64,000 nt of DNA from Streptomyces atratus. Its GTDB lineage: Bacteria; Actinomycetota; Actinomycetes; Streptomycetales; Streptomycetaceae. Position 1 is the stretch's first letter. Every line of letters starts with the position of its first letter. The stretch lies in contig NZ_BMRN01000017.1 in assembly GCF_014648655.1 (NCBI RefSeq), forward strand, positions 1 to 64,000, read 5' to 3'. The translations under genes and the position numbers were made by a program. A model generated the notes under the pieces. It searched no databases, was not told where the DNA came from, and saw only the letters and a list, made by a program, of their open reading frames with translations. Shown piece by piece: positions 22,405-62,497 of the stretch.

Positions 22405-23427
22405 TCAGCGAGGCAGGAGCACGCCGGTGTCCGCGTCGCGGGCGGTGGCGTAGACGCGGGTTGCGAGCGCCACGTCATGGACGCCCATGCCGAACGGGTT
22501 GATGACCGTCCGGTCGGTGGCGGTGATCGTGCGGGAATAGGTGCCGGACAGGAGCGTGGCAAGGTCCGCGTCCACCTGACGGGCGCCCGGGGCCGTGGTG
22601 CCCGGGGCCGTGGCGCGGCCTGCTTGGGCCAGGCGGCCCAGGAGTCGGGTGTCGTCCTCGCTGACCAGGTGCCAGTCGTCGACGAACAGGTGCTCGGCGC
22701 CCAGGAGTACGTCTTCGGCGGCGTCGTCCAGTGACACGTTGAGGAAGACGGAGCCCCCCGGCAGCCAGGCCAGCGGGACGTAGGAGGTCGTGGTCGTCGT
22801 GGTGGCCAGAGTGACCGGGGCCGACCGGACCGCCAGCTCTGGTTCGGCGACGGTCTCGACCTCGATCTCCGGCAGCGATTCACGCAGCTCCTCGGCGAAG
22901 GCCGCTGCCCGGGAAGGCGACAGGTCGTAGGCGATCACCGACTTCACCGCACCCCGGGCCGCCAACAGGTCCAGGTGCGTACGCGCCTGACGACCGCACC
23001 CCAGCAGGGCCATCCGGTCAACCGTGGACAGCGGGCGGACCGCGCGCAACGCTGCCAAGGAGACCGCCGCGGTGCGCAGGGCGCTGATGTGCGCTCCCTC
23101 CATGATGCACACCGGTGCGGCGGTTTCCCGGTCGTACAACAGGATCAGGCCGGCGGCACGGGGCAGGCCGCGGTCCAGGTTGCCGAGGCAGGCGTTGATG
23201 ATCTTGCATCCGTACGTGCCCTCGTGCCGGGCGGGCAGGATGAGGCTGCGGGCCGCGGTTCCGTCCGGGGCGGTCCAGCGCAACGCCGTCTCGGGCGCCA
23301 CTGCGGACCGGCCCGCACGAACACCCAGGAACGCCTCGGTGACCACTTCGAGCGGGTCGATCCGCGCACACAACGACGCGACGGTGGCACCGTCGAGGTA
23401 CCGCAGAGGCGTGGACAAGTCCTGCAT
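22405..23427 (-). CDS. SbnB-like dehydrogenase of the ornithine cyclodeaminase/mu-crystallin family
   Basis: A 340-residue protein from ATG 23427, with AAAGGA 7 bases upstream. It has the OCD/mu-crystallin layout: an N-terminal substrate domain with GCKIINACLGN, EGAHISALRTAAVS before the dinucleotide fold, and a Rossmann motif ALLGCGRQARTHL near residue 130. In siderophore and antibiotic clusters such proteins paired with an SbnA-type synthase act as N-(2-amino-2-carboxyethyl)-glutamate dehydrogenase, releasing L-2,3-diaminopropionate and 2-oxoglutarate. An SbnA-like gene is present at 43796-44839, which favours this over ornithine-to-proline conversion. It is divergent from the thioesterase gene with a 78-bp shared promoter region. 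Confidence 0.75.
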   Translation of the reverse strand: MQDLSTPLRYLDGATVASLCARIDPLEVVTEAFLGVRAGRSAVAPETALRWTAPDGTAARSLILPARHEGTYGCKIINACLGNLDRGLPRAAGLILLYDRETAAPVCIMEGAHISALRTAAVSLAALRAVRPLSTVDRMALLGCGRQARTHLDLLAARGAVKSVIAYDLSPSRAAAFAEELRESLPEIEVETVAEPELAVRSAPVTLATTTTTTSYVPLAWLPGGSVFLNVSLDDAAEDVLLGAEHLFVDDWHLVSEDDTRLLGRLAQAGRATAPGTTAPGARQVDADLATLLSGTYSRTITATDRTVINPFGMGVHDVALATRVYATARDADTGVLLPR

Positions 23428-24291: not shown

Positions 24292-24320
24292 ACAGGCACA
24301 GCGGCTAGTTGGGATCGACT
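24278..24320. terminator. Possible bidirectional hairpin between convergent genes
   Basis: AGTCGATC (24278-24285) and GATCGACT (24313-24320) are perfect 8-bp complements. They overlap the stop region of the thioesterase gene and the end of the convergent acylase gene, leaving only 13 bases between the genes. The loop is long (27 bases), so the terminator role is tentative. Confidence 0.3.
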
Positions 24321-29600: not shown

Positions 29601-32600
29601 TCCCGGACTGCAGGGCGGTCATCGGGAACGCGTCGACGACATCCGGCGGGAAGGTGCTTTCCGTCGGCAGCAACGTGAACGGTTCGTGGCCGACGGCGGT
29701 TCCACCGGCCTCGTCGGCCCGCAGCGCGAGTGCGGTGACCGTCCGCGCAGCGTAGACGTCCTGCACGGTCAGGCCCAGGCCCCGGTCCTTCGCGAGGCCC
29801 ACCAGGCGGATGGCGCGCATGGAGTCGCCGCCGCCGTCGAAGAAGTCGGTGGTGGTGGTGACGACGGGGTCGGCGAGTACTTCACGGAACACGTCCAGCA
29901 GCACGGCCTCACGCACGCCGGTCGGGACGGCACCACCTTCGGACACCGTCGCGGTCGCTGTGGCCGCGGCTGCGACCACGGCCGCGCGGTCGAGCTTTCC
30001 GTTCGTGGTCAGGGGAAGTGCGTCCACCGCCACGACCGTGCGCGGCACCATGTAGCGGGGCAGCGTCGAGCGCACCGCCGCCAGCAGCTCCGCCGGCTCG
30101 GGCGTGGCATCGGTGGCCGGGACGACGACGGCCACGAGGTGCGCGCCGCTGTCGTCCGTGGTGACGGCCGCTCCGGCCGCGGCGACGCCGGGCTGGGTGG
30201 ACAGGGCCCGCTCGATCTCGGCCAGCTCCACCCGGAAGCCGTTGACCTGCACCTGCCGGTCGCGACGGCCGAGGTAGGCCAGCGTGGTGCCGTTGCGCCG
30301 CGCGAGATCGCCGGAGCGGTACATGCGGGCACCCGGTACGTGGCTGAAGGGGTCCGGCAGGAACCGCAGTGCGGTCTCCCGGGGCCGGCCGAGGTAGCCG
30401 TCGCTCACCTGCGGGCCGCCGACGTAGATCTCACCGACGCACCGGTCGGCGACCGGAGTGCCGTCGTCGTGCAGCACATGCAGCGCGGTGCCGGGCAGCG
30501 GCGTCCCGATGTCCGACTCGGCGGTCCGTGCGTCGTCGGGGCGCAGCCACCGCCACGACGCGTGCACCGTCGTCTCGGTGATCCCGTACATGTTCACGAG
30601 CTGGGTCCGGTCCCCGACCGCCTCGTACCAGCGCTCGACCAACCGCCGGTCCAGTGCCTCGCCCGCGAACAGCACATACCGGATGTGCTCGGTGGAGTCG
30701 GGCCGCGCGGCGAGCGCGGGGAGCATCACGGTCAGCGCGGACGGCGTCTGGCTGAGCACGGTCACCCGCTCGCGGGCACACAGCTCGGCGAACTCCTCCG
30801 GCTCCCAGGTGGTCAGCTGCGGGACCACGACGAGCCGCCCGCCGTGCAGCAGGCAGCCGAACATCTCGTACATGGACACGTCGAACGAGCAGGCGTGGAA
30901 GAGGGTCCACACGTCGTCCGGGCCGAGGCCGTACCCACCCGCGGTCGCGTCGAGCAGGCTGAGCACGTTGTGATGCGTGACGCGCACGCCTTTGGGCCGG
31001 CCGGTGGAGCCGGACGTGTAGATCACGTAGGCGGCGGCGTGCGCGGGCACGGGGACGAGGGGCGCCCTGCCCGAGGCGAGCTCGGCGAGGGTGGCGCGCT
31101 CCCTGGGCACCGTGTCGTCCTCGGTGATGGTGAGCCGGGCGCCCGAGTCGGTCAGTACGTCGCTCACGCGCGCCGTGGGCCAGGACTCGTGGAGCACGAG
31201 GCACGCGCCGCCCGAGGCCATCACGCCGAGGATGGCGACGACGAGATCCAGCCCGCGCGGCAACGAGATGGCGACGACGTCCCCGGCCTGGACACCGCGG
31301 GCGCGCAACCCGCCCGCGGTCTCCTCGACCCGGGCCTGGAGGTCCGTGTAGGACAGAGCGCCGTCCGGTGCGGTGACGGCCACCGCGTCCGAGCGTGTGC
31401 GGGCCGTCTCCGCGAGGCGCCCGGTCAGCGACTCGTCGGCGCGCGGCACTCGGTCGGGCTCGGCGACCGCACCGGGTGCGGCCGTCCCGAACGAACCGAC
31501 GGCGAGCGCCGTGACCGGGACGGCCGGGTCGGCGACGGCGGCCGTCAGCACGGAGACGGCGGTGGCGGCGATGGCGGCGACGTCCGCATCGGCCACGGCA
31601 CCCCGGTCGGCCTCGATGTCCACGGTGAGGGTGTCGCCGTTGTCGCGGACCAGGAAATTCAGGCTGTACTTGGCGCCGACCTGCTCCACTTCGACATGCT
31701 CGATCGCCAGCCCGGGGAACACCGGCGCGGGCAGCTTGGCGCCGAGGTCGGTGAGAATGACGTTGAACGGCACGCCGGAGCCCGCGACGTCGGCCGGTAC
31801 GGGTGCGTTGCGGACGGCGCCCAGCACGGCCGTCCTGGTCCGCCGGACGAGGTCGGCGAACGGGGCGCTGCTGACGTCGAGCCGTACCGGCACCATGTCG
31901 AGCAGCAGGCCGACGACCCGTTCGAGGCCGGCGCGATCGCGGCGGGAGGTCGGCATGCCGACCACGAGGTCGTCGCGCCCGGTGTAGCGGGACAGTGCGA
32001 CCGCGACCGCGGTGGAGACGACGGTGAAGAGGCCGGATCGGGTCTTCTCGGCAAGCCGCCGCAGGGCGGTGGTGGTGTCGGCCGGTACGACAACGTGATG
32101 TGCGTGGCCGCGCTCTGCGGCCGCGCCGTCGAGTGGCGGGGGCAGCGGGAGCGCGCCCAGTGACGCGTCGTCAAGCCGTTCGCGCCAGTAGCGGCGGGTG
32201 GCGGACAGGTCGGCGTGGGCGAGGCGTTCGGTCTCCCAGCGGGCGTAGCCGACCATGTCGACGGTCGCGCCGGCAGCCGGTGGCTCCTGTCCCGCGACCC
32301 GGCTTCCGTAGCAGCTCGCCAGGTCGTCGAGCATCGGGCCGAACGACGGGCCGTCGGCGATCACGTGATGGAGCACGAAGAAGAAGACGTGATCCTCTGC
32401 CGCCAACCGGAACAGGTGCATCGCCACCGGTGGTGCCGTGTCCAGGGCCAGGGGCCGGTCGGCGAGCCGGGCGCACTCGGCCACGCACTCGTCCAGACCG
32501 GCTGCCTCGGTCACCGTCAGCGGGGGCTCCACCGTCGGCAGGATTCGCTGCTGCGGCTCTCCGCCCGTCACCGGGAATACGGTGCGCAGCGACGGGTGCC

Positions 32601-32949
32601 GCTCGTGGATGTCCCGCAGCGCCGTGACGAACGCGTCGGTGTCGAGCGGGCCGCGCAGTCGCAGCGCCCCGCACAGGTTGTACGTGCCGTCCTCGGCGAA
32701 GTACGTGGTGGCCCACAGCGACCGCTGCGGGGCGGTCAGCGGCCCGGTGTCCCCCGCGGACACCGGGGGCCACGTCAGCCGCTCGCGCCGGCCGACCAGG
32801 TCGACCAGTTCGTCGCGGTGCCGCTTCATCTCCGCCAGCAGCTCGGGCGGCAGCGCGTCGCCCCGGACGCGGTAGCGGATGCGGTCGTCGGCGAGAGTGA
32901 GCGCCACGCCGAGATCATCCAGGCGTCGCAACAGGTCCTGCGCGGTCAC
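26635..32949 (-). CDS. NRPS: docking-C-A-PCP-C-PCP-C
   Basis: A 2104-residue protein whose GTG 32949 overlaps the stop of the PCP gene. Domains: a TubC-type docking domain (1-~52), C1 (~70-480, HHVIADG), A (~500-960, A3 YTSGSTGRPKG, A10 NGKLDR, code by eye DVYSLAMVHK, unassigned), PCP1 (~985-1055, FFDGGGDSM), C2 (~1075-1510, HHAILDGWS), PCP2 (~1555-1625, FFDAGGDSL), and C3 (~1650-2095, HHIVCDGWS). The second module has no A domain, so its PCP must be loaded in trans, and the protein ends in a C domain that needs a further acceptor or nucleophile. There is no TE domain. The docking domain implies an ordered contact with an upstream partner. Confidence 0.95.
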   Translation of the reverse strand: MTAQDLLRRLDDLGVALTLADDRIRYRVRGDALPPELLAEMKRHRDELVDLVGRRERLTWPPVSAGDTGPLTAPQRSLWATTYFAEDGTYNLCGALRLRGPLDTDAFVTALRDIHERHPSLRTVFPVTGGEPQQRILPTVEPPLTVTEAAGLDECVAECARLADRPLALDTAPPVAMHLFRLAAEDHVFFFVLHHVIADGPSFGPMLDDLASCYGSRVAGQEPPAAGATVDMVGYARWETERLAHADLSATRRYWRERLDDASLGALPLPPPLDGAAAERGHAHHVVVPADTTTALRRLAEKTRSGLFTVVSTAVAVALSRYTGRDDLVVGMPTSRRDRAGLERVVGLLLDMVPVRLDVSSAPFADLVRRTRTAVLGAVRNAPVPADVAGSGVPFNVILTDLGAKLPAPVFPGLAIEHVEVEQVGAKYSLNFLVRDNGDTLTVDIEADRGAVADADVAAIAATAVSVLTAAVADPAVPVTALAVGSFGTAAPGAVAEPDRVPRADESLTGRLAETARTRSDAVAVTAPDGALSYTDLQARVEETAGGLRARGVQAGDVVAISLPRGLDLVVAILGVMASGGACLVLHESWPTARVSDVLTDSGARLTITEDDTVPRERATLAELASGRAPLVPVPAHAAAYVIYTSGSTGRPKGVRVTHHNVLSLLDATAGGYGLGPDDVWTLFHACSFDVSMYEMFGCLLHGGRLVVVPQLTTWEPEEFAELCARERVTVLSQTPSALTVMLPALAARPDSTEHIRYVLFAGEALDRRLVERWYEAVGDRTQLVNMYGITETTVHASWRWLRPDDARTAESDIGTPLPGTALHVLHDDGTPVADRCVGEIYVGGPQVSDGYLGRPRETALRFLPDPFSHVPGARMYRSGDLARRNGTTLAYLGRRDRQVQVNGFRVELAEIERALSTQPGVAAAGAAVTTDDSGAHLVAVVVPATDATPEPAELLAAVRSTLPRYMVPRTVVAVDALPLTTNGKLDRAAVVAAAATATATVSEGGAVPTGVREAVLLDVFREVLADPVVTTTTDFFDGGGDSMRAIRLVGLAKDRGLGLTVQDVYAARTVTALALRADEAGGTAVGHEPFTLLPTESTFPPDVVDAFPMTALQSGMIYHQEMAPGARIYHIMLSYRVRGVMDPAAFRAAAQAVTDAHPVLRTSFDLANELGPVQRVHTGITVPIEFEDLTRLGADEQQERIRQVVARETATDFDLSAPPLFRLVVLTTSAADYQLIFTHHHAILDGWSVNIFFEDLQAQYRALLAAGTAPPLPRPRTTFGDYVALEQHAAADEGHREFWTARTAAQARLIAPERSGAPVMRQFHADFTGQLDALRATAARLGVPVKALLCASHLRVVSWLTGADDVASSSVVACRPETQDSDRVLGLFLNQLPLRVALAGQTWAELAVRAHEEEQAMMRHRWYPNAAIQAAYGAVPMFDSSFNFTDYHNTRRMVRDGSLELLDVDELESTHYAYSSAFTVDVRAHELRLLMEYDASALPETTLVLAAEVHRRALAAIVAAPERPFRDTPLPGIADLARLMGSGRPPAPAAAAVAAAPAAVPDAVAPVAPAPAPSGSPLETSVREVWTEVLGITDIDATTSFFDAGGDSLTAMQVVSRLRARHGTLSMRAFMAAPTIAGLANALDGAAAPAPSAVVPTPPETVTRHPLSLAQRQMWEIANQLPGVGLFGMAGALRADGPLDRALLERTFAELATRHEALRTRIEDTGDGPVQVVEPHVTITVDVEDLTADEHPARRCEKLMAAAAREPLPLDQAPLMRVVVHRLAVDRHVIYLNIHHIVCDGWSLTLLLSDAARIYRELAADGAPAPRQVPRGSGRLAKDRADWLATGEAARQREFWLDRLTPPWPALADEPDSRFAELGTASFVQRLRSASTRATLPADDMRTVRAAARKHGMTDFMLVLGAYAATLRAWSGQDDIRVATMLANRVEPGLDEVVGLVANTVVLRMQLDDADPVAVSRQAREVCVAALDNQELPFEEVLAEIRERHPDAGPVFEAMLVAQEETAAVTPEDGLVFAPYQSERDVLGARVVATASDFVVGIAPVGGELLFELRYKPATTSKELATELLTAITTAVRATAAALLETS

Positions 32950-33215
32950 AGCTCTCCCTCGAAGACCGGCTCGGCGGCCGGCCGGCCGGCACGGAGGCGA
33001 TCCAGTTCGGCGGCGACCTCGGCGACCGTCCCCAACTCGAAGAAGTCCTCCAGCTCCAGCTCGACGCCGGTCAGCTCGGTGAGCCGGTAGAGCACCTGCA
33101 CGGCGAGCATCGAGTGGCCGCCCAGCTCGAAGAAGTCCTCGTCGACGGCCACCGTGTCCACCTCCAGCAGTTCACGCCAGACCGCGGCGACCTGATCCTG
33201 AGTCGACACCTTCAT
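32946..33215 (-). CDS. Free-standing peptidyl carrier protein
   Basis: An 89-residue PCP. The phosphopantetheine Ser is in DFFELGGHSMLAV near residue 36. ATG 33215 overlaps the upstream NRPS stop as TGATG, and the PCP stop overlaps the next NRPS start as GTGA, so it is coupled on both sides. It lies between A-PCP-C and docking-C-A-PCP. It could carry a residue activated in trans (for example by the PZS-A fusion protein) that the flanking C domains then use. Confidence 0.9.
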   Translation of the reverse strand: MKVSTQDQVAAVWRELLEVDTVAVDEDFFELGGHSMLAVQVLYRLTELTGVELELEDFFELGTVAEVAAELDRLRAGRPAAEPVFEGEL

Positions 33216-42618: not shown

Positions 42619-43799
42619 TGCTCTTCCTTCCAGTCGAAGCGGACGGCCGCCTCACTCGCGCCGAACATGAGTCGTGGGTCGAGCAGGCGCGTGCCCGCCG
42701 GGTCGACCGCGAAGTCCACCGTGGAGTCGAGCAGCCTGCGCAACGCGATACGGATCTCCACGCGCGCGAGCGGCGCGCCCAGGCAGTAGTGGATGCCGTG
42801 GCCGAAGGCGATGTGCGGGTTGGTCGAGCGCTCGATGTCGAAGACGTCCGGGCCGTCGAAGACCCGCGGGTCCCGGTTGGCGGCCGCGATCCACACGGAC
42901 ACCGTCTGGCCGGCGGGTATCTCGTGCCCGCCGACCACGACGTCCCGCGTGGTCTTGCGCTCCACTCTCGTGGTCTCCGACCGGTACCGCATGACCTCGT
43001 CGATGGCCGAGTTGAGCAGTTCGGGCCGGGTCTGCAGCATGGCCAGCGACTGCGGGTGCCGCGCGAGGACGATGATCGCGTTCACGAGCGTGAGGGTCGC
43101 AGCCTGCCCGGTGGACATCAGCAGGGCGACCAGGCCGGCGATCTCGTCGTCACCGAGGCGCTCACCGTCCACTTCGGCCGCGATGAGCCCGCTCGTCAGG
43201 TCGTCGGCCGGTGCGGCTCGCCGCTTGGCGATGAACCGGTGCAGGAACGCCTCGGCGATCTGGGTCTTGGTGAGCACCGCCTGCAGGCCGTTCTGCTCGG
43301 CGCCCGGGTCGGCGAGCGCGAGCAGGGCCTGCGACCACTCCTGGAACAGCCGGAGCCCGTTGCCGGGAATGCCGACCATCCGCGCGATGACGGTGGCCAC
43401 GACCGGTGAGGCGAACTCCCGCACGAAAGACACCTCGGCGTTGCGCCGGATGCCGGTGAGGAACGTCTCGACCGTCTCGTGGATCATCGGCTCGAGCCCG
43501 GCGACATAGCGTGGCGTGAAGACCTGGCTCACCAGTGCCCGTAGCTGCCGGTGCCGAGGTGGGTCCATCCACGTCAGGTTGCCCTCGCGGTACAGGCGCA
43601 TCGGCGAGTCGTCGGGCACCGGCCGCACCACGGCGTTGGAGAACGCGCCATGGTTGGCGAGCACCTCCTTGACCTCCCGATAGCCGAAGACGTGCCAGCC
43701 TCCGCCGCCCGGGGCCCGCTCGATCGGGTCGCGGGCACGCAGCCAGTCGGCCAGCGCCGTCTCGTCGGCGGGCGGTGGTGTCCACACGCTCGTCGTCAC
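42615..43799 (-). CDS. Cytochrome P450 with atypical I-helix
   Basis: A 394-residue P450. The start is put at GTG 43799 because AAGGGAG lies 7 bases upstream, while ATG 43805 would leave only one base; GTG also overlaps the SbnA-like stop as GTGA. The heme loop is FGHGIHYCLGAPLAR (Cys339); ExxR is in DEVMRYR. The I-helix reads LMSTGQAATLT, so both the acidic and the following alcohol residue of the standard (A/G)Gx(D/E)T motif are Ala. The enzyme could use another proton route or do a non-hydroxylating reaction. Its place directly before the FAAL-NRPS suggests action on a building block or on the carrier-bound chain. Confidence 0.85.
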   Translation of the reverse strand: MTTSVWTPPPADETALADWLRARDPIERAPGGGGWHVFGYREVKEVLANHGAFSNAVVRPVPDDSPMRLYREGNLTWMDPPRHRQLRALVSQVFTPRYVAGLEPMIHETVETFLTGIRRNAEVSFVREFASPVVATVIARMVGIPGNGLRLFQEWSQALLALADPGAEQNGLQAVLTKTQIAEAFLHRFIAKRRAAPADDLTSGLIAAEVDGERLGDDEIAGLVALLMSTGQAATLTLVNAIIVLARHPQSLAMLQTRPELLNSAIDEVMRYRSETTRVERKTTRDVVVGGHEIPAGQTVSVWIAAANRDPRVFDGPDVFDIERSTNPHIAFGHGIHYCLGAPLARVEIRIALRRLLDSTVDFAVDPAGTRLLDPRLMFGASEAAVRFDWKEEQ

Positions 43800-44839
43800 G
43801 CACATGCTCCCTTGGTAGCGACCGGTGTCAGGTGTTCGGCGACCCAGTCGTCCGCGTAGACCGTGTCGGCGTACGGTTCGCCGTTGTCGGCGCACAGGAA
43901 CGCCACCACGGGCTCCCGGCCGCTGTGCCCGTCGAAGTGGTGGGTGATCGCGGCGTATACGCAGCCGGTGGAGCCGCCCGCGTAGATGCCGTGGTCGCGC
44001 AGCAGGGCCCGGCAGCCGGCCACCTCGTCCCTCTCGGACAGCACGACCACCTTGCTGATCCACGCGGCGTCGACCAGCGGCGGGCGGATGCTGGAGCCGA
44101 TACCCGGAATGAGCCGGCGGGCCGGCGGGGCGCCGAAGATCGCCGAGCCCTCGACATCGACGGCCACCACGGTGGCGTCCGGCTGCTCCACGCCGAGCCT
44201 GTGCGAAAGGCCGTTGATCGTCGCGCCGGTGCCGACGCCCACGAACAGGTAATCGACACGGCCGACATCGGCGAGCAGCTCCCCCGCTGTCAGCTCGTAG
44301 TGGCCGCGCGCCCCGTCCGGGTTGGTGTACTGATCCGGCCAGTACACGTCCGGCAGCTCCGCGCGCAGCTCGGCGACCCGCGTGAGCCTGCTGAGCAGGT
44401 AGCCGCCCGTGCCGTCCGGCTCGGTGACCTTCTCCACCCGCGCGCACAACCGCCGCAGCGTCCGCTCGGTGGCCGCGTTGACGTTCGGGTCGAGGACCGG
44501 CACGAACGGCACGTTCAGCGCGTTGAGGAACGATGCGAGGGAGAGCGCGAAGTTTCCGGAGGACGATTCGACCACCGTGGTGTTCCTGGTGATCTCGCCG
44601 CGTCGCACGGCCTCTCGGAGGATCCAGATCGCCGCGCGGTCCTTGGCGCTTCCGGTGCGGTTCTCCGACTCCATCTTGGCGTAGAGCCGGATACCCGGGT
44701 AGGGCAGACGCACCACACGGGTCTTCGGCAGGTCGCGCAGCAGCGCGTCCACACGGTCGAGCAACGGCTTGTCGATCCGGACTTCCCGCTGCTGTGTTTC
44801 CGTGTTCTCCCGGCCGCTGCGCTCAGCAGGCGCAGACAC
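43796..44839 (-). CDS. SbnA-like PLP synthase for 2,3-diaminopropionate
   Basis: About 347 residues from GTG 44839, which overlaps the end of the FGE-like gene; the open frame runs further upstream but without support. It belongs to the cysteine-synthase fold: PLP lysine Lys66 in NRTGSAKDRAA, phosphate/substrate loop ESSSGNFALSLA, and VGVGTGATINGL. The phrase RLPYPGIRLYAKMESENRTGS is the SbnA/VioB-type pattern. SbnA joins O-phosphoserine and glutamate to N-(2-amino-2-carboxyethyl)-glutamate, which an SbnB-type enzyme (here 22405-23427) converts to L-2,3-diaminopropionate. Splitting the pair between two operons is unusual, but both lie in the cluster. Confidence 0.85.
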   Translation of the reverse strand: MSAPAERSGRENTETQQREVRIDKPLLDRVDALLRDLPKTRVVRLPYPGIRLYAKMESENRTGSAKDRAAIWILREAVRRGEITRNTTVVESSSGNFALSLASFLNALNVPFVPVLDPNVNAATERTLRRLCARVEKVTEPDGTGGYLLSRLTRVAELRAELPDVYWPDQYTNPDGARGHYELTAGELLADVGRVDYLFVGVGTGATINGLSHRLGVEQPDATVVAVDVEGSAIFGAPPARRLIPGIGSSIRPPLVDAAWISKVVVLSERDEVAGCRALLRDHGIYAGGSTGCVYAAITHHFDGHSGREPVVAFLCADNGEPYADTVYADDWVAEHLTPVATKGACA

Positions 44840-45677: not shown

Positions 45678-47291
45678 TTACTTCGTTGTGGATGCGGCCG
45701 GGACGTACCGGCCGTCGAGGTAGTAGCGCCACACAGTGGACAGCGGCGCGCTGCCACAGCGCACCACTCGGTCATGGAAGGCCTTCAGGTCGGCGGCCGA
45801 GTCACTGACGCCGGCCAGCTCGCGCCACCGCCGGATGCGCAGTTTGCCGAGCGTGTACATGGCGCCGGCCGGCTGAGCGGCCACGGCCAGCACCTCGCGG
45901 CCGGCGCGCTCCGGCGACCACGCACACAACGTGGCGGCCTCGGCGGCGGCAGCGCCGAACTTGCTCCGTCCCGAGTGGACGGAGAGGAAGACGAGCAGGC
46001 GGGTGGCAGCCTCCAGGGCGAACCGCAGGGCGGCCACCTCCACGAGCGGGCGGCCCTCGGCAAGGCCGCGCTCGATCGCCAACTCCTCGGTGTAGTGGGC
46101 CCATCCCTCGGTGACCCCGGGGAACCACGGCACACACCGGCGGATCGCGCCCGCGTGCTCAGAAGTGGTCTCGTGGTGCAGGTAGTGTCCGGGGAAGACC
46201 TCGTGCACGGCGATCATCTCGAGCATCGGCTCGTTGAGGTAGTCGCGCAGCGCGGCGGGGTCGCGCGGCTCCGGGACGTGCAGCACGTGTGGCTGCGGTG
46301 CTCTCTCGAGTGGACCGCCGACGTCGAAGACGACCGCCGCTGAGGTCGACGCGTCGCGGACGGGACGGATGTCGAGCCCCTGCCTGCTGGTCATGGTGAC
46401 GACGTCCTGCTCGACCCAGAACCCCTGGAGCCGATCGATGATCCGCGACAGCGTACTTACCACCGAACCCGCTGGGACCCGTGCGCTCAGCAGGTCGTAC
46501 GCCTCCTGCCGGGTGCGCACCCCCAGTCGTGCGGACAGTGCGTCGAGACGGGCGACCAGGCTCTCAACTTCGGCCTCCACCTCCGCGAGCAGCTCAGCCA
46601 CCGGGGTGTCGACCCCCTCGGCCGCCTCGAGGTAGGCGGCGAGCAGGTCAGGACCGAGGACCGCCCGAGCCGGCTGGGTGGCCGCGACCGCGCCCGCGAA
46701 GCCGACGAACGCGGCGCTCGCCCGGCCGGCCAGCTCCATGAGGGAGCTGTCGGCCGACTCCGGCCGCTCAGCGACGAGTTGATCGACCAGGTCCCGAACG
46801 GACACCGCGCGGGCCCTGGCGTTCTCGACGCCACTGATCCGCTCGCCCGCCGGCAGAGTACGGCCGAGCGTCTTCGCCGTGGCCGCGAGAAAGTCCGGCA
46901 GCTGCGCGAGATGATGCGACAACGCCGCGACACGTTCGTCGAGCGATGCGTACTCGCCGCGCAGGTAGATGTGCACGCCGGTCTCGGCGAGCCATTCGTC
47001 GGGCCCGCGGTGGGACCGGCCCAGCTCGGCGATGCGGAACCGCTCATCAGTGAGCACCCGCATCGCCGTACCGAGGTCCGCCCGCACCTCCGGGTCCGCG
47101 TCCTCGGGCAAGGCGTCGAGCTGCCCGGAGACCGCGGCCAGCAAACCGTCCACATCGGACAGAGAGTCGGGCGCGACCTCAGGCAGCTGTCCGTCGAAGT
47201 CGTGACGGCCCGCCCGCCTGGCGACCTGCGGATAGCGGTCGAAAACATAGTCGACGACAGCGGAAACCGAACTCAGAGCACCGGACGTCAT
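45678..47291 (-). CDS. DUF885 protein (putative metallohydrolase), second copy
   Basis: A 537-residue DUF885 protein from ATG 47291 (AGGAAGTGAC upstream). The metal-site motif is IAVHEVFPGHYLHHE, followed ~30 residues later by GVTEGWAHYTEEL. It is only distantly similar to the first copy (20133-21869): the motif regions agree, while most of the rest does not line up by eye. No signal peptide. It is between the extended MbtH gene and the FGE-like gene, at the beginning of the long minus-strand operon. Members are assumed to be metallopeptidases, but reactions are mostly untested. Confidence 0.8.
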   Translation of the reverse strand: MTSGALSSVSAVVDYVFDRYPQVARRAGRHDFDGQLPEVAPDSLSDVDGLLAAVSGQLDALPEDADPEVRADLGTAMRVLTDERFRIAELGRSHRGPDEWLAETGVHIYLRGEYASLDERVAALSHHLAQLPDFLAATAKTLGRTLPAGERISGVENARARAVSVRDLVDQLVAERPESADSSLMELAGRASAAFVGFAGAVAATQPARAVLGPDLLAAYLEAAEGVDTPVAELLAEVEAEVESLVARLDALSARLGVRTRQEAYDLLSARVPAGSVVSTLSRIIDRLQGFWVEQDVVTMTSRQGLDIRPVRDASTSAAVVFDVGGPLERAPQPHVLHVPEPRDPAALRDYLNEPMLEMIAVHEVFPGHYLHHETTSEHAGAIRRCVPWFPGVTEGWAHYTEELAIERGLAEGRPLVEVAALRFALEAATRLLVFLSVHSGRSKFGAAAAEAATLCAWSPERAGREVLAVAAQPAGAMYTLGKLRIRRWRELAGVSDSAADLKAFHDRVVRCGSAPLSTVWRYYLDGRYVPAASTTK

Positions 47292-55121: not shown

Positions 55122-56402
55122 GTGACAGCCGTCGAGCTGCCGAGCGTGAGTACCGTGGACGTCGTGGGGATCGGGTTCGGTCCAGCCAACCTCGCTGTGG
55201 CGATCGCCATCGAGGAGTCCGACGCACCGATCACCATGGCCTTCCACGAGCGACAGGCGGGTTTTGGTTGGCACACCGGGATGCTGATCGAGGGCGCCAC
55301 CATGCAGGTGTCCTTTCTCAAGGACCTCGCGACGATGCGCAACCCCAACAGCCGCTACACGTTTCTCACCTACTTGCACGCCCACGGCAGGATGCCGGCG
55401 TTCATCAACAGCAAGATGCTGTACCCGTACCGAATCGAGTTCCACGACTACCTACGGTGGGCCGCAGCGCAGCTCGACACGCACGTCTCCTACGGCTCGA
55501 CGGTCGTGGGCATCCGCCCGGTCCAGGGCGTGGACGGCCACGTCGACCTCCTCGAGATCGTCACGGAGGGCGCGGACGGCGGCAGGCGTGTCCAGCGGGC
55601 GCGCAACGTCGTGCTCGGCACGGGCATAGCACCCAACCTGCCGCCGGGTGTCACCTCTTCGGCCCGGATCCGGCACAGCTCGGAGCTGCTCACCCGCGAC
55701 TTCGGAACGCCGCGCCACGGGCGGTACCTGGTCGTGGGGGCCGGGCAGAGCGCCGCGGAGTGCGCCGACTATCTCCACCGCACCTACAGCGACGCAGCGG
55801 TGCACACCGTCTTCACGCGCTACGGCTACAGCGTCTCTGACGACAGCCCCTTCACCAACTCCATCTTCGACCCGGCCGCAGTCGACGACTTCTACCGCGC
55901 GCCGGAACAGACCAAGGAGACGCTGCTCGCGTACCACGCCAACACCAACTACTCGGTGGTCGACCTGGACTTGAGCCAGGATCTGTTCCGGCGGGTCTAC
56001 CTGGAGGAGGTCCAGGGCCGCCCGCGGCTGCACGTCCACCGCGCTTCGCGGGTACGTGCCTGCACGGAGACCGTCGACGGCGTCGAGGTGGAGGTGGAAT
56101 CACTGGTCACCGGCGAGGTGACCCGGTTGGTGGTGGACGGCGTCGTCTACGCCACCGGCCACCGGCCCACCGACCCCCTGCCGCTGCTCGGCGACTTGGC
56201 CGACGAGTGCAAGAAGGACGAGGCGGGCGGCCTGTATGTGGACCGCGACTACCGTGTCCGCACCTCGGAGATGCTGCGCTGCGGCATCTATCTGCACGGC
56301 GCCGGCACCGAAAGCAGCCACGGCCTGGGCGCGGGCCTGCTGTCCAACACCGCGGTCCGCGCGGGCGAGATAGCGCGATCGATACTCGGCCAGTCGGCCT
56401 GA
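55122..56402 (+). CDS. L-ornithine N5-monooxygenase (SidA/IucD/KtzI family)
   Basis: A 426-residue flavoprotein; GTG 55122 has GAGGAG 9 bases upstream. It has the FAD motif VGIGFGPANLA, the substrate block SFLKDLATMRNPNSRYTFL, the NADPH motif VVGAGQSAAECADYL, and the C-terminal ATGHRP, all typical of the N-hydroxylating monooxygenases. Such enzymes make N5-hydroxyornithine for hydroxamate siderophores or, when followed by a piperazate synthase (KtzI/KtzT), for piperazic acid. Here the next gene, 12 bp away, starts with a KtzT-like domain, which favours the piperazate route. Confidence 0.92.
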   Translation: MTAVELPSVSTVDVVGIGFGPANLAVAIAIEESDAPITMAFHERQAGFGWHTGMLIEGATMQVSFLKDLATMRNPNSRYTFLTYLHAHGRMPAFINSKMLYPYRIEFHDYLRWAAAQLDTHVSYGSTVVGIRPVQGVDGHVDLLEIVTEGADGGRRVQRARNVVLGTGIAPNLPPGVTSSARIRHSSELLTRDFGTPRHGRYLVVGAGQSAAECADYLHRTYSDAAVHTVFTRYGYSVSDDSPFTNSIFDPAAVDDFYRAPEQTKETLLAYHANTNYSVVDLDLSQDLFRRVYLEEVQGRPRLHVHRASRVRACTETVDGVEVEVESLVTGEVTRLVVDGVVYATGHRPTDPLPLLGDLADECKKDEAGGLYVDRDYRVRTSEMLRCGIYLHGAGTESSHGLGAGLLSNTAVRAGEIARSILGQSA

Positions 56403-56414
56403 GACGGAGAGACA

Positions 56415-58598
56415 GTGTTCGTACCACCGATGTACCGGATCACTGATGCGGGCCTGGTGCACGAGGTCATCCGGCAGCACCCCCTGGCCATGCTGGTGAG
56501 CAACGGGCCGACCACCCCGTACACCACCCATCTGCCGATCATCCACGAGCCGGGAGCCGAGCAGCCGGATTCGTTGACCGGGTTCTCGCTGTTCGGCCAC
56601 CTCAACCGGGCCAACCCGCACTGGCGCGCGCTGGCGGGCGGAGCCCCCGCGACCCTCATGTTCACGGGTCCCACCAGCTACGTCACGCCGGCCCTGTACG
56701 ACACTCCGGTCGCCGCACCCACCTGGAACTTCGTTACCGTCGAGCTGACCGGTGACCTGGTGCCACTGACCGACCGCGAGGAGACGCTGGAGGTCGTCCG
56801 GCGCACGGCCGAGCTGTTCGAGCAGCGGTTCGGCCGGGGCTGGGAGTCCGAGCCGTCGGTGGAGTACTTCCGGAGCATCGTGGACGGGGTCGGCGCCTTC
56901 CGGTTCGACGTGGTCACCGGGCAGGCGATGTTCAAGCTCAGCCAGGAGAAGGAGCCCGCGATCCGCGACCGGGTCGCGAACAGCATGCTCGCCGACGGCG
57001 ACAGGACCCGTCGCGAACTGGGAGTCCACATGCAACAGATCGGGCGGCCGCAGAAGGCGGGACGGCCTGCGCTGTGGGGTGGCGCCGCAAAACCGGAGTG
57101 CCTGCTGCACGGCCTGGCCCGCACGGCAGCCGAGCGGTCCGACGAGCTCGCCCTGGCCGACGGGCCGACACAGCTGACCTATGCGGAGCTGTGGGCGTGG
57201 ACCGCCGACCTCGCCGCGACGCTCACCGGTCACGGCGTCGGACCCGGCAGCCGGGTCGCGGTCACCGGCGAGCGCAGCGCGCGGACCGTGGCGGCCCTTC
57301 TCGCCACCATCGCGGTCGGCGCCACTTACGTGCCGCTGGACTCGTCATACCCGGCGAGCCGGCTCACGTTCATGCTGCAGGACAGCGGCGCCGGCATTCT
57401 GCTGCACGACGGCCCCCGGCCGTCGTTCGCCGGTGACATCCCGACCCATGCCATCGAGGGCCCGTCCGCGGGCGACGTCTCCGGCTTCCAGCCGGTCGCC
57501 TGCCGGCCGGACCTGCCGGTGTACGTCATCTACACCTCGGGGTCGACCGGGCAGCCCAAGGGCGTGACGATCCAGCACAGTTGCCTGGACAACATGGTGA
57601 CGTGGCAGCGCACCGACTCCGTGCGTCCCGGCCTGCGGACCGCGCAGTTCGCGCCGCTCAACTTCGACGTGTGCTTCCAGGAGATCCTGGGCACGCTGTG
57701 CGGCGGCGGCACGCTCGTCATCGTCCCCGAGACGCTGCGGCGCGACCCGTTCCGCTTTCTGGACTGGCTGGCCGGGAATCGCATCGAGCGCCTGTTCCTG
57801 CCCTACGTCGCCCTCCATATGCTCGCGGTGGCGGCGTCGGCGCAGGACGGCGAGCTCGGCCTGTCGCTCGTCGAGGTGAACACGGCCGGGGAACAGATGC
57901 TGTGCACGCCGCCGATCCAGGCGCTGTTCAAGGCACTCCCGGGGGCCAGGCTCGGCAACCACTACGGGCAGAGCGAGTCCGCGATGGTCAGCTCGTACGT
58001 GCTGCCGGCCGACCCCGCCGAGTGGCCCTTGCTCCCGCCCATCGGCAGGCCGCTGCCGGGCTGCGAACTGCTGGTGGACCCCACGGACCCGGACGACCCG
58101 TACCTCGGCGAGCTGCTCGTCGCGGGGTCGCCGGTGTCGCTGGGCTACCTCGACCGGCCGGAGCTGAACGCCGAACGCTTCGTGACGGTCGACCGCACCC
58201 CGCACGGGCACACCAAGGCCTTCCGTACCGGCGACCTGGTGCGACTCGAGGACGGCCTCGTGTACTTCCTCAGCCGGCTGGACCACGACGTCAAGATCCG
58301 TGGTGTCCGGGTGAATCTGCTGGAGGTCGAGGCATGCCTGATGCAGCAGCCCGGCGTCGCCACCGCCGTCTGCGTGGCCTTGGAGCTGGTTCCCGGCTCT
58401 CGCCAGCTCCGCGCCGCGGTGACCCTGAACCCGGACGGGCCGGAGCCCGGCGACCTGCGCGCGACGCTCGCCGAGCTCCTGCCCGCGGCGTCGGTGCCCG
58501 CGTCGGTGGCGGTGCTCGGCGCCCTGCCGCGGACACTGAGCGGCAAGATCGACCGCGAGTCGGTCGCCAAGACCCTCTCCCCCGGCGGTGACCGATGA
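56415..58598 (+). CDS. Fusion of piperazate synthase (KtzT-like) and adenylation domain
   Basis: A 727-residue protein from GTG 56415 behind GGAGAGACA. Residues 1-~215 match the KtzT/PaiB-like heme enzyme that closes the N-N bond of piperazic acid from N5-hydroxyornithine: HPLAMLVSNGP, FGHLNRANPHW (His62, in the block with the family's proposed heme ligand), AAPTWNFVTVEL, VGAFRF and MFKLSQEKEPAIRDRV. Residues ~235-720 are a full A domain (A3 YTSGSTGQPKG, YGQSESAMV in place of YGPTE, A10 LSGKIDR) with pocket DVQFNAHMVK by eye, close to the proline code DVQLIAHVVK and so suited to a cyclic imino acid. It probably makes and activates piperazate, then loads the next-encoded PCP. Confidence 0.88.
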   Translation: MFVPPMYRITDAGLVHEVIRQHPLAMLVSNGPTTPYTTHLPIIHEPGAEQPDSLTGFSLFGHLNRANPHWRALAGGAPATLMFTGPTSYVTPALYDTPVAAPTWNFVTVELTGDLVPLTDREETLEVVRRTAELFEQRFGRGWESEPSVEYFRSIVDGVGAFRFDVVTGQAMFKLSQEKEPAIRDRVANSMLADGDRTRRELGVHMQQIGRPQKAGRPALWGGAAKPECLLHGLARTAAERSDELALADGPTQLTYAELWAWTADLAATLTGHGVGPGSRVAVTGERSARTVAALLATIAVGATYVPLDSSYPASRLTFMLQDSGAGILLHDGPRPSFAGDIPTHAIEGPSAGDVSGFQPVACRPDLPVYVIYTSGSTGQPKGVTIQHSCLDNMVTWQRTDSVRPGLRTAQFAPLNFDVCFQEILGTLCGGGTLVIVPETLRRDPFRFLDWLAGNRIERLFLPYVALHMLAVAASAQDGELGLSLVEVNTAGEQMLCTPPIQALFKALPGARLGNHYGQSESAMVSSYVLPADPAEWPLLPPIGRPLPGCELLVDPTDPDDPYLGELLVAGSPVSLGYLDRPELNAERFVTVDRTPHGHTKAFRTGDLVRLEDGLVYFLSRLDHDVKIRGVRVNLLEVEACLMQQPGVATAVCVALELVPGSRQLRAAVTLNPDGPEPGDLRATLAELLPAASVPASVAVLGALPRTLSGKIDRESVAKTLSPGGDR

Positions 58599-58858
58599 CG
58601 GCCGGGCCGAGGGCGGGTGAGCTGACCGAACCGTACGAACGGCGGATCGCCGAGATCTGGACGGCCGCGCTCGGCGTGCCGGTCACCACGGCCGGCCACG
58701 ACTTCTTCGCGGGCGGCGGCGACTCCTTCCAGGCCGCGCTCGCCACCGCTCAGGTGCGCCGCGAGTGGGGGCTGGAGATCACCGTCCAGCTGCTGATCGA
58801 CCACCCGGTAATGGGTGACTTCGCGGACCGGGTGGCGCAGTTCGTGGAAGAGCGATGA
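58595..58858 (+). CDS. Free-standing peptidyl carrier protein
   Basis: An 87-residue PCP with the phosphopantetheine Ser in DFFAGGGDSFQAAL near residue 50. ATG 58595 overlaps the PZS-A stop, and its own stop overlaps the next NRPS start (ATGA both times). It lacks its own A domain, so loading by the preceding PZS-A protein is the simplest reading. Confidence 0.9.
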   Translation: MTAGPRAGELTEPYERRIAEIWTAALGVPVTTAGHDFFAGGGDSFQAALATAQVRREWGLEITVQLLIDHPVMGDFADRVAQFVEER

Positions 58859-61539
58859 GGGATCGCCTCGATCTCGTCGTCGCCGAGTGGGCACGTCGCA
58901 CCCCCGATGCCACGGCCGTACTGCGCGACGGCATCGGCATCGGCTACGCCGAGCTGGTGGAGCGGGCCGAGGTGGTCGCCACCGCGTTGCGGCACGAGGG
59001 AATCGGGTCCGGGGACGTGGTCGCGGTCGCGTCGGACCGGTCCGTGGAGTTGGTCGTGGCTCTGCTCGGCTGCCTGCGTGCGGAGGCCACCACGATCGTG
59101 CTCGACCCGGCCTGGCCGTCGTGGTGCACCGAGGACGTGCTCGATCGCGCGGCCGTCCGTGCCGTGGTCCACGACGACGCCCGGGTGGAGGTTCTGCGGT
59201 CCCGTTCGGACGGGAGCGCGGACGCGGCGTGCCTCGTCTTCCTGCCCGGTGCCCGTCCCCACGGCGTGGCCGTCTCCCACCAGGAGCTCGTGGCGGCCCT
59301 GACCGACGCCGAATCCCTTGCTCCCCGGTTCCTGCAAGCGGCTGTGCCGGGCAGTTGGGACTTCACGTACGAAGTGTGGGCGGCGCTCCTCAACGGCGGG
59401 TGCGTGGTGTTCGGCCCACCCGCGGACGCCGACCACATACGACTGTCCACGACGCAGTTCCACACACTCGCCGATAACCCGGAGTCCTTGCAGGGTTTGC
59501 GTGGGCTGGTGGTCGCCGGCGCGTCACCCGACTCGTCGGCGATGCTCGCCGTGCTGCGCAAGAACCCAAAGCTGCGACTGCGGCATGTCTATGGGTCCGC
59601 CGCGACCGCCCTGGTGAGCCGCGTGGTGCGTCAGCAGGACATAGACGGCGAGTCGCTCCCGCTGGTACCGGACGACCGGATCGTGCTGGGCGAGGACGGC
59701 GAGGTGACCGTCGCCGCTGTGGCGACCGGCGACATCGGCCGGGCGGACGAGCACGGCATGATCCGAGTGCTGGGGCGCCGGGACGACCTGCTCCGAATCG
59801 GTGACCGGTGGGTCGACCCCCACCGGATCGAGACCGTGTTGAAGGCGGAGCACCGGATTGCCGAGTGCGTCGTCTTCCCGGCCGACGATGCGCTGGCCTG
59901 CGCGTACACCACGCATGACGGGCAGCCGCGACCCGAACTGCCCGGAATATCGGTCCACCTGCACCTGCCCAGCCTGCCCGCCGAGGCGACGCTGCGGGTG
60001 AGCTACTCGTCTCTGGTCGAGAAGCTGCGCACCCACGAGCCGGACTCCCTGCTCGCCGAGGTCCGCAGCCTTTTGGGCGTCACCGCCCTGACGCCGGATG
60101 ACGACCTCCTCGACGCGGGCATGACCTCGCTGGACGCCATGCGGCTCGCGACCGTGCTCAGTGTGCGCGGCCGTAGGAAGGTCACCGTCGCAGACATCTA
60201 CCGGGAGCGGCGGCTGAGCGCCCTCGCCGACGCCGCGACCGCGGCACCCGGATCGGTCGCGCCGGTGGTCCACGACACCCGGGACCGCCCCTTGGCCCAC
60301 GCCCAGAAGCGGTTCCTGTTCGCGGAGGCCTACGCGCCGGGCAGCGCGGACAACCTGGTCATCGAGGCATACGAGCTGACCGGTCCCCTGCGTCCCGACG
60401 TGCTGCGCACGGCGCTCGGCGACGTGGTGGCCCGCCACGAGGCCCTGCGCACCGTCTATGTCTGGGAGCGCGGTCAACCCATTCAGCGCGTGCTCGCCGA
60501 CAAGGCCGTGCCGTGGACCGACGTGCCGCCGCCAAAGGGCCGGCTGTCGGTCCGGGAGATCGCCGAGCGCATCACCGCGGATCTGTGGGACACGCCGTTC
60601 CGGCTCGATCGCGAGCTGCCGATCCGCGCCCGCCTGTGCCGGCTCGCGCCGGACCGCGCGCTGCTGTGCCTGCAGTTCCATCACATCGCCTTCGACGGCT
60701 CGTCGGAACTGCCACTGCTCGAAGACCTCCGACACGCCTACGTCGCGCGTGCCGAGGGTCGCGTCCCACGGTTCCCGCCCGCACCCGGCTATCCCCTGCT
60801 CGGCCGACAGGAGGCGCGCGACCTCGCGTCCTGGTCCGCCGACGACATCCCGTACTGGCGCGAGACGCTCGCCTGCTGCCCGCCGTCCTGCTTGCCGCCC
60901 GCGGACAAGGGCGGCGACGCCGAGGCAACCGCCCACGAGACGGTCCGCCGCCTCGAGGCCACCACGGTGCGGCGGCTGGAGGCCGCGGCGGCCCGGTGCG
61001 GCGGTCCTGCGCTGGCCGCGCTCTCGGCGGGCACCGCGATGGCCGTCGCCCGCCGGTTCGGCGCGGACGACGTATGCGTCGGCACCCTGACCGCGGGCCG
61101 GTTCGACCCCGCCATGGACCAGCTGGTCGGGTACCTCGTCAACCCGTTCGCCGTGCCCCTGCACGGTCTGCGACGGGAGGCGGGGACCGTGCTGGCCGCG
61201 GCGGCCCGGCAGGTCGTCGACGGGCTGGAACACGCACGGACGCCGTTCGACGAGGTGGTCCGCGAGCTGCGCGCCGAGCGCGGCGCGCACCCGTGGTTCG
61301 AGGCGTGGGTGGTGCTGCAGCACCCACCGCCCGCCGTCTCGTTCGGCCCCATCGCGCTGCGTCCGGTGCGGGTCCGGCCACCGCGGACGTCGCGCAGCTG
61401 GATGGTCGAGGCGTTCCCCGTGGCCGACGGCGGCTGGGACCTGGTCACCACATGGCGCGCGGATGTCATGACCTGCGAAACCGGTGCGGCTCTGGCCGAC
61501 GACGTAGCCGCGGCGCTGGCGGAACTGGTGGACGCGTGA
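58855..61539 (+). CDS. NRPS: degenerate A-PCP-C
   Basis: An 894-residue protein. Residues 1-~390 have an A-domain outline, but the catalytic motifs are eroded: A3 (normally TSGSTGxPKG) reads LPGARPHGVAVSH, A5 (YGPTE) reads YGSAATALVS, A7 keeps only VATGDIGRADEHG, and the A10 NGK lysine is missing; the domain is also shorter. It should not form acyl-adenylates. A PCP (~400-470, LLDAGMTSLDAM) and a full C domain (~485-890, HHIAFDGSS) follow and look functional. The pseudo-A may be structural, with its PCP loaded by another A domain. Coupled to the genes on both sides. Confidence 0.9.
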   Translation: MRDRLDLVVAEWARRTPDATAVLRDGIGIGYAELVERAEVVATALRHEGIGSGDVVAVASDRSVELVVALLGCLRAEATTIVLDPAWPSWCTEDVLDRAAVRAVVHDDARVEVLRSRSDGSADAACLVFLPGARPHGVAVSHQELVAALTDAESLAPRFLQAAVPGSWDFTYEVWAALLNGGCVVFGPPADADHIRLSTTQFHTLADNPESLQGLRGLVVAGASPDSSAMLAVLRKNPKLRLRHVYGSAATALVSRVVRQQDIDGESLPLVPDDRIVLGEDGEVTVAAVATGDIGRADEHGMIRVLGRRDDLLRIGDRWVDPHRIETVLKAEHRIAECVVFPADDALACAYTTHDGQPRPELPGISVHLHLPSLPAEATLRVSYSSLVEKLRTHEPDSLLAEVRSLLGVTALTPDDDLLDAGMTSLDAMRLATVLSVRGRRKVTVADIYRERRLSALADAATAAPGSVAPVVHDTRDRPLAHAQKRFLFAEAYAPGSADNLVIEAYELTGPLRPDVLRTALGDVVARHEALRTVYVWERGQPIQRVLADKAVPWTDVPPPKGRLSVREIAERITADLWDTPFRLDRELPIRARLCRLAPDRALLCLQFHHIAFDGSSELPLLEDLRHAYVARAEGRVPRFPPAPGYPLLGRQEARDLASWSADDIPYWRETLACCPPSCLPPADKGGDAEATAHETVRRLEATTVRRLEAAAARCGGPALAALSAGTAMAVARRFGADDVCVGTLTAGRFDPAMDQLVGYLVNPFAVPLHGLRREAGTVLAAAARQVVDGLEHARTPFDEVVRELRAERGAHPWFEAWVVLQHPPPAVSFGPIALRPVRVRPPRTSRSWMVEAFPVADGGWDLVTTWRADVMTCETGAALADDVAAALAELVDA

Positions 61540-61553
61540 TGGAGGTACGAAGC

Positions 61554-62252
61554 ATGGTCGCGGTCCTGGACTACCCGGGGCGCAGGCCGGAGGCCCCGGT
61601 CACCGCGCTGGGTCTCGATGGCATGGTTCCCCTGCTGACCGACCCGCTTCCCGTCGAGGTCACCGGTCCCGCGTACGCGGCACGGCTCGACGGCTTCCCC
61701 GGTCCGGTCCTGGCCTACTGCGCCGCGTCGGCACTCGCGGTCCACCTCGCGCACCGGTTGGAACGCCCACGGGCCCTGGTCTTCTTCGATCCGATGCCGG
61801 CCACCGCCGCCGATGTCGCCCGGGCCTACACCATCGCGAGGGACCAGGTGCCGGGGAGCAGCGAGCAGGCGGTGCCGGTCGGCGAACTGCCCGATGAGCC
61901 GGACCTGTTCCTGAAGGCCGTGCACGAGGACCTGACACAGCGTACGGAGACGGCTCTTCGGGCGCAGGGGCTGGGCGATGACGCGATCGCCGAACCGGTC
62001 GCGCACTTCGTCCGACAGCATGTGGCGTACCTCGCCTACCTGCTGGCGGCACAGGGCCCGCTACCGCGGGAGCCGGTCGGGCCGATGCTCCAGATCCTCT
62101 CCCGCGACCACCCCGACCACCGCGACTGGCTCCCCGAAGGGGAGCTGACCACGATACGCATCGACAGCGACCGGGCCGGGCTCACAGCCCACGAGTCGGC
62201 CAGGAACGTCGTTCTGTCGTTCCTCTCCGCGACAACGAGGAGGCCACACTGA
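61554..62252 (+). CDS. Putative alpha/beta-hydrolase-like protein, degenerate
   Basis: A 232-residue protein. The upstream ATG 61539 overlaps the previous stop, but ATG 61554 has GGAGG 8 bases before it and is preferred. A segment reading FPGPVLAYCAASALAVHLA followed by RALVFFDP resembles the strand-nucleophile-helix elbow and next strand of a thioesterase, but the GxSxG motif is replaced by AYCAAS, so activity is doubtful or uses the Cys. The C-terminal HESARNVVLSFL resembles the helix of the catalytic-His region. It sits between the A-PCP-C and a stand-alone PCP and may bind carrier-bound chains. Confidence 0.55.
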   Translation: MVAVLDYPGRRPEAPVTALGLDGMVPLLTDPLPVEVTGPAYAARLDGFPGPVLAYCAASALAVHLAHRLERPRALVFFDPMPATAADVARAYTIARDQVPGSSEQAVPVGELPDEPDLFLKAVHEDLTQRTETALRAQGLGDDAIAEPVAHFVRQHVAYLAYLLAAQGPLPREPVGPMLQILSRDHPDHRDWLPEGELTTIRIDSDRAGLTAHESARNVVLSFLSATTRRPH

Positions 62253-62497
62253 TGACCGGCGAAGGACTGCGTGCCACGATCGAGGAGATCTGGCGAGAGG
62301 TACTCGGGGCGGATGTCGGCGACGACACCGACTTCTTCGACGAGGGCGGGCACTCGTTCGCCGCGCTGCGCATCATCGCGATGCTCAACGACCGCTACGA
62401 CAAGCCGACGCCGGTGAAGGTGCTGTTCGACAACCCCCGGTTCGGCGACTTCGTCGCGGCGCTGGAGAAGGAGACGGGCCTCAGCCCGCAGCGCTAG
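62252..62497 (+). CDS. Free-standing peptidyl carrier protein
   Basis: An 81-residue PCP with the Ser in DFFDEGGHSFAAL near residue 35. ATG 62252 overlaps the preceding stop (TGATG). Its last 17 bases overlap the end of the convergent NRPS gene at 62481. That gene ends in an A domain without a PCP, so this carrier is a natural partner for it in trans. Confidence 0.9.
   Translation: MTGEGLRATIEEIWREVLGADVGDDTDFFDEGGHSFAALRIIAMLNDRYDKPTPVKVLFDNPRFGDFVAALEKETGLSPQR

Follow-up and report, generated by a model that had tools for sequence, protein, structure and literature searches.

A KtzT-type piperazate synthase domain fused in frame to an adenylation domain in a non-ribosomal peptide synthetase gene cluster of Streptomyces atratus

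The gene at positions 56415–58598 (forward strand) of the window, the 64,000-nucleotide stretch of Streptomyces atratus DNA analysed here, encodes a single intact polypeptide in which a KtzT-type piperazate synthase (PZS) is followed by a complete adenylation (A) domain. This PZS-A fusion is a real, conserved and rare union of two known enzyme types for neighbouring steps, and its novelty lies in the fusion itself, both halves coming from known families. We consider it probable (about 0.78) that the gene encodes a bifunctional piperazate synthase-adenylation enzyme that supplies piperazate to a non-ribosomal peptide synthetase (NRPS).

The open reading frame (727 aa) runs in a single frame without internal stops from a GTG codon at 56415; this start gives the same N-terminus, MFVP, as in PipS and KtzT. 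Pfam matches on the whole protein were FMN_bind_2 (PF04299, aa 1–166, E = 6.7e-36), AMP-binding (aa 235–579, E = 1.2e-60) and AMP-binding_C (aa 637–711, E = 5.3e-7). The PZS domain was placed at 56415–57050 (aa 1–212; PF04299, PDB matches, tree and model) and the A domain at 57072–58598 including the stop codon (aa 220–727; Pfam, code DVQFNAHMVK and tree), both on the forward strand. The union of a KtzT-type synthase with a complete A domain had been proposed in a sequence-only reading of this DNA, and Pfam, scores against PDB chains, tree and the single open frame all agree with it. A search for the same two-domain order recovered the in-frame fusion in the window and in two further genomes, S. 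albiflavescens (L028 = G251) and G301 (L066), at 82% identity. Among the three fusions, dN/dS was 0.35–0.42 for the PZS and 0.24–0.29 for the A domain; because L028 and L066 carry the same in-frame fusion and these values are low, a sequencing artefact, frameshift or assembly error was ruled out as its origin. Structure prediction, which the same reading had suggested as a check, gave a good AlphaFold model of the PZS domain (pLDDT 90.3) and a poor one of the whole fusion (pLDDT 60).

Compared with solved chains, aa 1–212 scored 236 bits against 9qlk, 201 against 9ebk, 196 against 9jn4 and 168 against 9kea, which are SbPZS, PipS, KtzT and LnzB, respectively (PMC13274692 and entry titles), 114–136 bits against NohD variants and 75–76 bits against PaiB. 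In a tree of 62 rows (L114 entered twice; with a long-branch warning among the distant rows), the window PZS fell within a 45-row clade (100/95) that holds SbPZS, PipS, KtzT and LnzB, with the distant PF04299 rows outside it; "PaiB-like" is our label for those rows, true PaiB having been left out, and the position of the NohD row, an engineered mutant (9or1), was disregarded. The three fused PZS domains formed one clade (100/100), sister to L035 and SbPZS of Streptomyces sp. B93 (99/94), the latter a free-standing enzyme and the closest solved PZS. Moreover, the PZS-domain model aligned with 9qlk over 209 residues (Z 27.6, rmsd 1.9), against Z 21.1 and 19.9 for the two PaiB entries listed. All six residues named for SbPZS, T38, H61, N63, N66, T102 and K173 (PMC13274692), are present in the fused domain (THNNTK in the alignment), and the distant PF04299 rows carry A at position 63 (SbPZS numbering); since PaiB also has His61, Asn66, Thr102 and Lys173 (PMC13274692), four of the six, these residues alone are no proof of a PZS. 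Two PZS-like genes inside the PZS clade (L042:12482–13111 and L044:12503–13132) have T at the N63 site (THTNTK).

That the N-terminal domain might instead be a PaiB-type FMN/heme regulator or an N-hydroxylamine dehydratase of the NohD type is suggested by the shared Pfam family PF04299, and the earlier reading had named a grouping with PaiB as the result that would speak against its proposal. Scores, tree and fold comparison showed no such grouping and rejected both identities; in addition, the changes A59N, V96A and R144Y, which appear in the titles of engineered NohD structures, correspond in the alignment to N64, A101 and Y151, residues that the fused domain already has. We regard this alternative as extremely improbable and, from its sequence relationships, assign the N-terminal half to the PZSs of the KtzT type, not to PaiB.

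The A-domain code proposed earlier by eye, DVQFNAHMVK, was reproduced identically by alignment (D418, V419, Q422, F461, N489, A491, H516, M524, V525 and K711, fusion numbering). Across 25 aligned rows, in which two species occur twice, this code was found 21 times, including MatJ (L033) and LydK (L076), DVQFNGHMVK three times (L067, L069 and L073) and DVQFNAHVVK once (L065). A tree built from 69 A domains placed the window domain in a 23-row clade (100/100) with MatJ and LydK, within which the three fused A domains formed a subclade (99/94). The pocket motif around A5, NHYGQSESAMV (57957–57989, forward strand; aa 515–525), is identical from HYGQ to SAMV (aa 516–525) in 22 clade rows. Among the best 20 A domains outside the clade, 15 carry DVQF or DVQY codes such as DVQFIAQVVK and DVQYAAHVVK, which we take to denote proline, and the clade is thus set apart from them at N299 and M330. 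Such outgroup codes, together with the match of eight of the ten code residues to DVQFIAHVVK (L024), favour a reading in which the A domain activates proline, or proline and piperazate with relaxed specificity, with the fused PZS supplying a different part of the pathway; the code and clade shared with MatJ and LydK speak against it.

Both of these proteins have been assigned to piperazate in print (PMC5719088, PMC12130866). For MatJ, encoded in the record given for the matlystatin cluster (L033), piperazate was predicted, the protein is 59% identical to the marformycin protein MfnK, and deletion of matJ abolished matlystatin (PMC5719088); the codes of LydK and MatJ are identical (PMC12130866). 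No assayed A domain with the code DVQFNAHMVK was found in the literature consulted; the piperazate assignment of such domains is one of prediction, gene deletion and product structure. Other piperazate A domains carry DVFSVAAYAK-like codes (PMC9866976, PMC10888640), among them KtzH-A1, HmtL-A1 and ArtF-A1, which are likewise assigned to piperazate but have codes of the form DVFSV..YAK and are numbered as domains of larger NRPS proteins (PMC9866976). A separate lineage of piperazate-specific A domains had been suspected from the sequence alone; the difference from the DVFSVAAYAK type holds, but the lineage is already known, MatJ and LydK having the same code. MatJ and LydK stand alone, whereas the A domain of the window is fused to a PZS; because standing alone is a matter of architecture and not a catalytic feature, we describe the window domain as one of the same clade that works like them, in a new architecture.

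Two relatives of the window cluster bear on the substrate. In G313 (L065) and G900 (L132) the N-hydroxylase and the body of the PZS are absent from the locus, and a PZS tail stands in frame before the A domain, so that the ancestor was probably fused. The cluster is otherwise recognisable, with genes mostly 61–88% identical to those of the window in G313 and the same cluster over the 19.9 kb compared in G900. The DNA match between G313 and L066 breaks off about 80 bases upstream of where the hydroxylase gene starts and picks up again at PZS residue 181, so that some 1.8 kb net is missing; as G900 has the same deletion and shares 93% identity with G313 in this stretch, the two were counted as one event. 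Nothing in the G313 genome matched PF04299, and the PZS domain found no counterpart in the G900 genome at E ≤ 1e-10. An N-hydroxylase outside the cluster is retained in G313 (L084, G313:C12:273542–274831; 55% identical to that of the window).

Both genomes read HYGPSETHVV for HYGQSESAMV, and both carry V330 where the clade has M330; PSETHV also occurs in several outgroup domains of the proline type. Among 167 clade-invariant columns G313 departs at nine, four of which lie within the 10 motif columns (hypergeometric P = 0.0007, for a region picked after inspection). In a leave-one-out control G313 departed at 7 of the 135 columns invariant in the rest, close to the 0 to 5 of other members, so that the clustering stands out and the total does not. 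When 16 clade genomes were scanned whole, a PZS match was present in all 14 with QSESAM and in neither of the two with PSETHV; for scale, any PF04299 match, PaiB-like ones included, was found in 76 of 150 genomes of the genus. In the A tree L065 was placed, weakly (87/68), outside the fused and unfused rows, and a constraint joining it to the three fusions was not rejected (p-AU 0.46), the tree thus neither showing nor rejecting a single clade of fusions and remnant. These comparisons suggest that G313 and G900 lost their piperazate supply and that the substrate shifted towards proline, in one evolutionary event. Because the loss of the PZS coincides with PSETHV, piperazate is favoured over proline as the substrate of the window A domain; a change towards a proline-type motif in two PZS-less relatives would have been needless had the domain already taken proline, which argues against the proline reading, and we hold that reading to be unlikely. 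Strict proline specificity, which the earlier reading had listed as a possible refutation, is likewise disfavoured by these sequence comparisons.

The fusion is rare even within its clade. In frame fusion of the PZS was found in 3 of 25 distinct clade members (window, L028 and L066) and a PZS tail alone in two (L065 and L132), leaving 20 with neither fusion nor remnant. In five members (L029, L030, L031, L035 and L052), N-hydroxylase, PZS and A follow one another as three separate genes, and except in L029 a start codon of the A frame overlaps the PZS stop; the remaining 15 have another arrangement or do not have all the genes within the available DNA. The 25 members are the window, L028 (= G251), L066 (G301), L065 (G313), L132 (G900), L029, L030, L031 (= G1046), L032, L033, L034, L035 (= G207), L037 (= G368), L042, L044, L052 (G070), L067, L068, L069, L070, L071, L073, L074, L076 and L134 (G972). 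Near-whole-query matches had made L029, L030, L031 and L035 candidate fusions, and their frames show separate neighbouring genes. In genome scans (E ≤ 1e-100; the draws of genus, order, class and phylum overlap), matches were obtained in 13 of 392 genomes of the genus, three of them fused including the window's own, and in 7 of 391 of the order, where the one fusion was the window's own; the single matches in the class (394 genomes) and phylum (396) scans were also the window's own. A pattern scan of GTDB, a non-exhaustive search that relies on exact matches to short peptides, returned 23 loci, 11 of which had a clade A domain, one of these fused. In a plasmid search (15 of 2023 records listed), no fusion was recognised among the matches listed, in which LydK was the closest A domain. 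A literature search weighted to open-access papers found no report of a PZS-A fusion, and mention elsewhere is possible. Most likely, the fusion has a single origin, in Streptomyces, and came from adjacent genes like the overlapping ones of its relatives.

The gene lies in a tight run on the forward strand. An L-ornithine N5-hydroxylase of the KtzI type (55122–56402; PF13434, E = 2e-101) ends 12 bases before it and has counterparts of 84–85% identity in the same position in L028 and L066. The fusion stop overlaps the start of a free-standing carrier protein, PCP1 (58595–58858; 87 aa; PF00550, E = 8.8e-10), retained throughout the five genomes with fusion or remnant (window, G251, G301, G313 and G900). 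The PCP1 stop in turn overlaps the start of a protein (58855–61539) read by motifs and Pfam as A-PCP-C, in which the A domain is degenerate and lacks SGSTG and the C domain has HHIAFDG; its L028 counterpart has an intact and different A domain, and the gene is absent from the locus in three of the five genomes (G301, G313 and G900). Further downstream are a thioesterase-like protein (61554–62252; 232 aa), with DYPGRR and YCA invariant in seven aligned sequences and a profile match to the Dieckmann cyclase NcmC (6e6t, E = 4.1e-15), and a second free-standing carrier protein, PCP2 (62252–62497; PF00550, E = 4.1e-15). In L030, L031 and L035, too, such a thioesterase-like gene lies close to that for the A domain. 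On the reverse strand, an NRPS of the same cluster (26635–32949) reads C-A-PCP-C-PCP-C by motifs, with a second module that lacks an A domain and no carrier motif after the last C domain, and a free-standing carrier protein of this line is encoded at 32946–33215 (reverse strand; PF00550, E = 8.7e-16).

Elsewhere in the window there are a single protein combining an MbtH-like domain with A-PCP (16910–18961) and, in the conserved cluster, a penicillin amidase-family protein with two DUF885 proteins (24305–26608, 20133–21734 and 45678–47153), also present in G251, G301 and G313. Ornithine cyclodeaminase-like and PLP-dependent (PALP) genes are present at 22405–23427 and 43796–44839, a pair that we take to make 2,3-diaminopropionate elsewhere; two NRPS A domains have the codes DIWEVTADVK and DIWELTADDK. 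Antrimycin or cirratiomycin as the product would be a guess, for which a literature search yielded nothing decisive.

From these features we propose the following route. The upstream N-hydroxylase, judged by its family, would convert L-ornithine to N5-hydroxyornithine, and the N-terminal heme domain, given its fold, clade and active-site residues, would close the N-N bond to give L-piperazate. The A domain would adenylate piperazate, as its clade, its code and the loss-and-switch case suggest, and load it in trans on PCP1, a partner indicated by position and conservation; PCP1 could then hand it over to the NRPS, whose motifs show one module lacking an A domain and a last C domain that no carrier follows. 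Cyclisation, release or shuttling are candidate roles for the thioesterase-like neighbour. Likely gains of the fusion would be a fixed 1:1 supply and proximity. Channelling of a reactive cyclic hydrazine to the carrier, which the earlier reading had proposed, would be a more speculative gain: free piperazate is reportedly a precursor (title of Wei 2022), and the 20 clade members mentioned above do without fusion or remnant.

In a different order of steps, the A domain would activate N5-hydroxyornithine, or the PZS would act on a carrier-bound substrate, so that cyclisation takes place on the assembly line. The sequence gives no step order and both activities lie in one chain, as such a scheme would have it, but the proline-like pocket would fit a cyclic secondary amino acid, and MatF, KtzT and other PZSs act on free N5-hydroxyornithine in vitro (PMC11705231), leaving on-line cyclisation very improbable beside synthesis of free piperazate before its activation.

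Whether the tether itself matters is a separate question. Solved PZSs are homodimers with active sites built from both chains (PMC13274692), so the fusion is probably a dimer carrying two A domains. Tethering to a neighbouring enzyme is not required, as stand-alone relatives exist, and both halves may work while their fusion is neutral, coupled genes having merged by loss of a stop codon, perhaps with an A-only product made from an internal start at M206. This account is compatible with the bifunctional enzyme that we favour, save for the benefit of tethering, and is a tenable one to which we give somewhat less than even odds. It draws on the probable single origin, on unfused relatives that work, and on the junction (29 codons), which is less constrained in two of the three pairs (dN/dS 0.64–0.73; 0.21 in the third). 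The sequence at M206, GGGAG 5 bases before ATG (57020–57032, forward strand), is also in its favour, being identical in all five genomes (window, L028, L066, L065 and L132). Persistence of the fusion in three species with both halves constrained argues against neutrality. Of 50 conserved Gly codons, that in the GGGAG-ATG stretch alone reads GGA in all three fusions; however, the window gene has 38 start-like codons in frame, and M206 is one of 4 among them that score −6.8 or lower by the same energy measure, which makes the evidence for this start weak. An A-only protein from M206 is possible on sequence grounds, and the A proteins of G313 and G900 may begin there. A bolder version of the tethered enzyme, in which a dimeric heme synthase bound to its own A domain makes and charges piperazate without mixing with the free pool, M206 provides extra A domain, and QSESAM is a piperazate/proline switch that reverted to PSETHV on deletion of the synthase, giving a proline peptide in the sister species, appears doubtful to us.

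Known systems contain the same parts in other arrangements. In the matlystatin cluster of Actinomadura atramentaria (L033), N-hydroxylase, PZS and A are also present but as separate genes, with some 3 kb between those for PZS and A; MatJ is 58% identical to the window A domain, with an identical code, and MatF is 47–48% identical to the fused PZS. LydK of the lydiamycin cluster on Rhodococcus fascians pFiD188 (L076) is a stand-alone A protein, 52% identical and with an identical code, which unlike that of the window has no fused PZS; it stands there side by side with a free carrier protein and a C protein, in a trio resembling that of the window. MfnK of the marformycin cluster, a piperazate adenylation protein, can be likened by description, via MatJ (PMC5719088). 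The earlier reading had mentioned PZSs fused to the N-hydroxylase, and these do exist: in the chimeric enzymes of Hu et al. (via PMC11705231) the PZS is also fused to a pathway neighbour, but the partner is the upstream hydroxylase, which in the window is a separate gene. Among the PF04299 loci compared, L095, L096 and L115 join an N-hydroxylase in frame to a PZS-like domain that has D at the N63 site and lies outside the PZS clade of the window; these three may be chimeras like those of Hu et al. The enzyme in PMC12154649 belongs to a different family.

A single chain that contains both the heme enzyme making a monomer and the domain activating it offers a clean test of tethering synthesis to loading, and the relatives from which the synthase has been deleted point to a few residues on which the choice of piperazate or proline may depend. 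If these residues do decide the substrate, they would aid the prediction of piperazate peptides from genomes and the engineering of A domains. For annotation the finding carries a warning, as the proline-like code DVQFNAHMVK probably denotes piperazate. Its main use would lie in the possible piperazate/proline switch and in a direct test of tethering.
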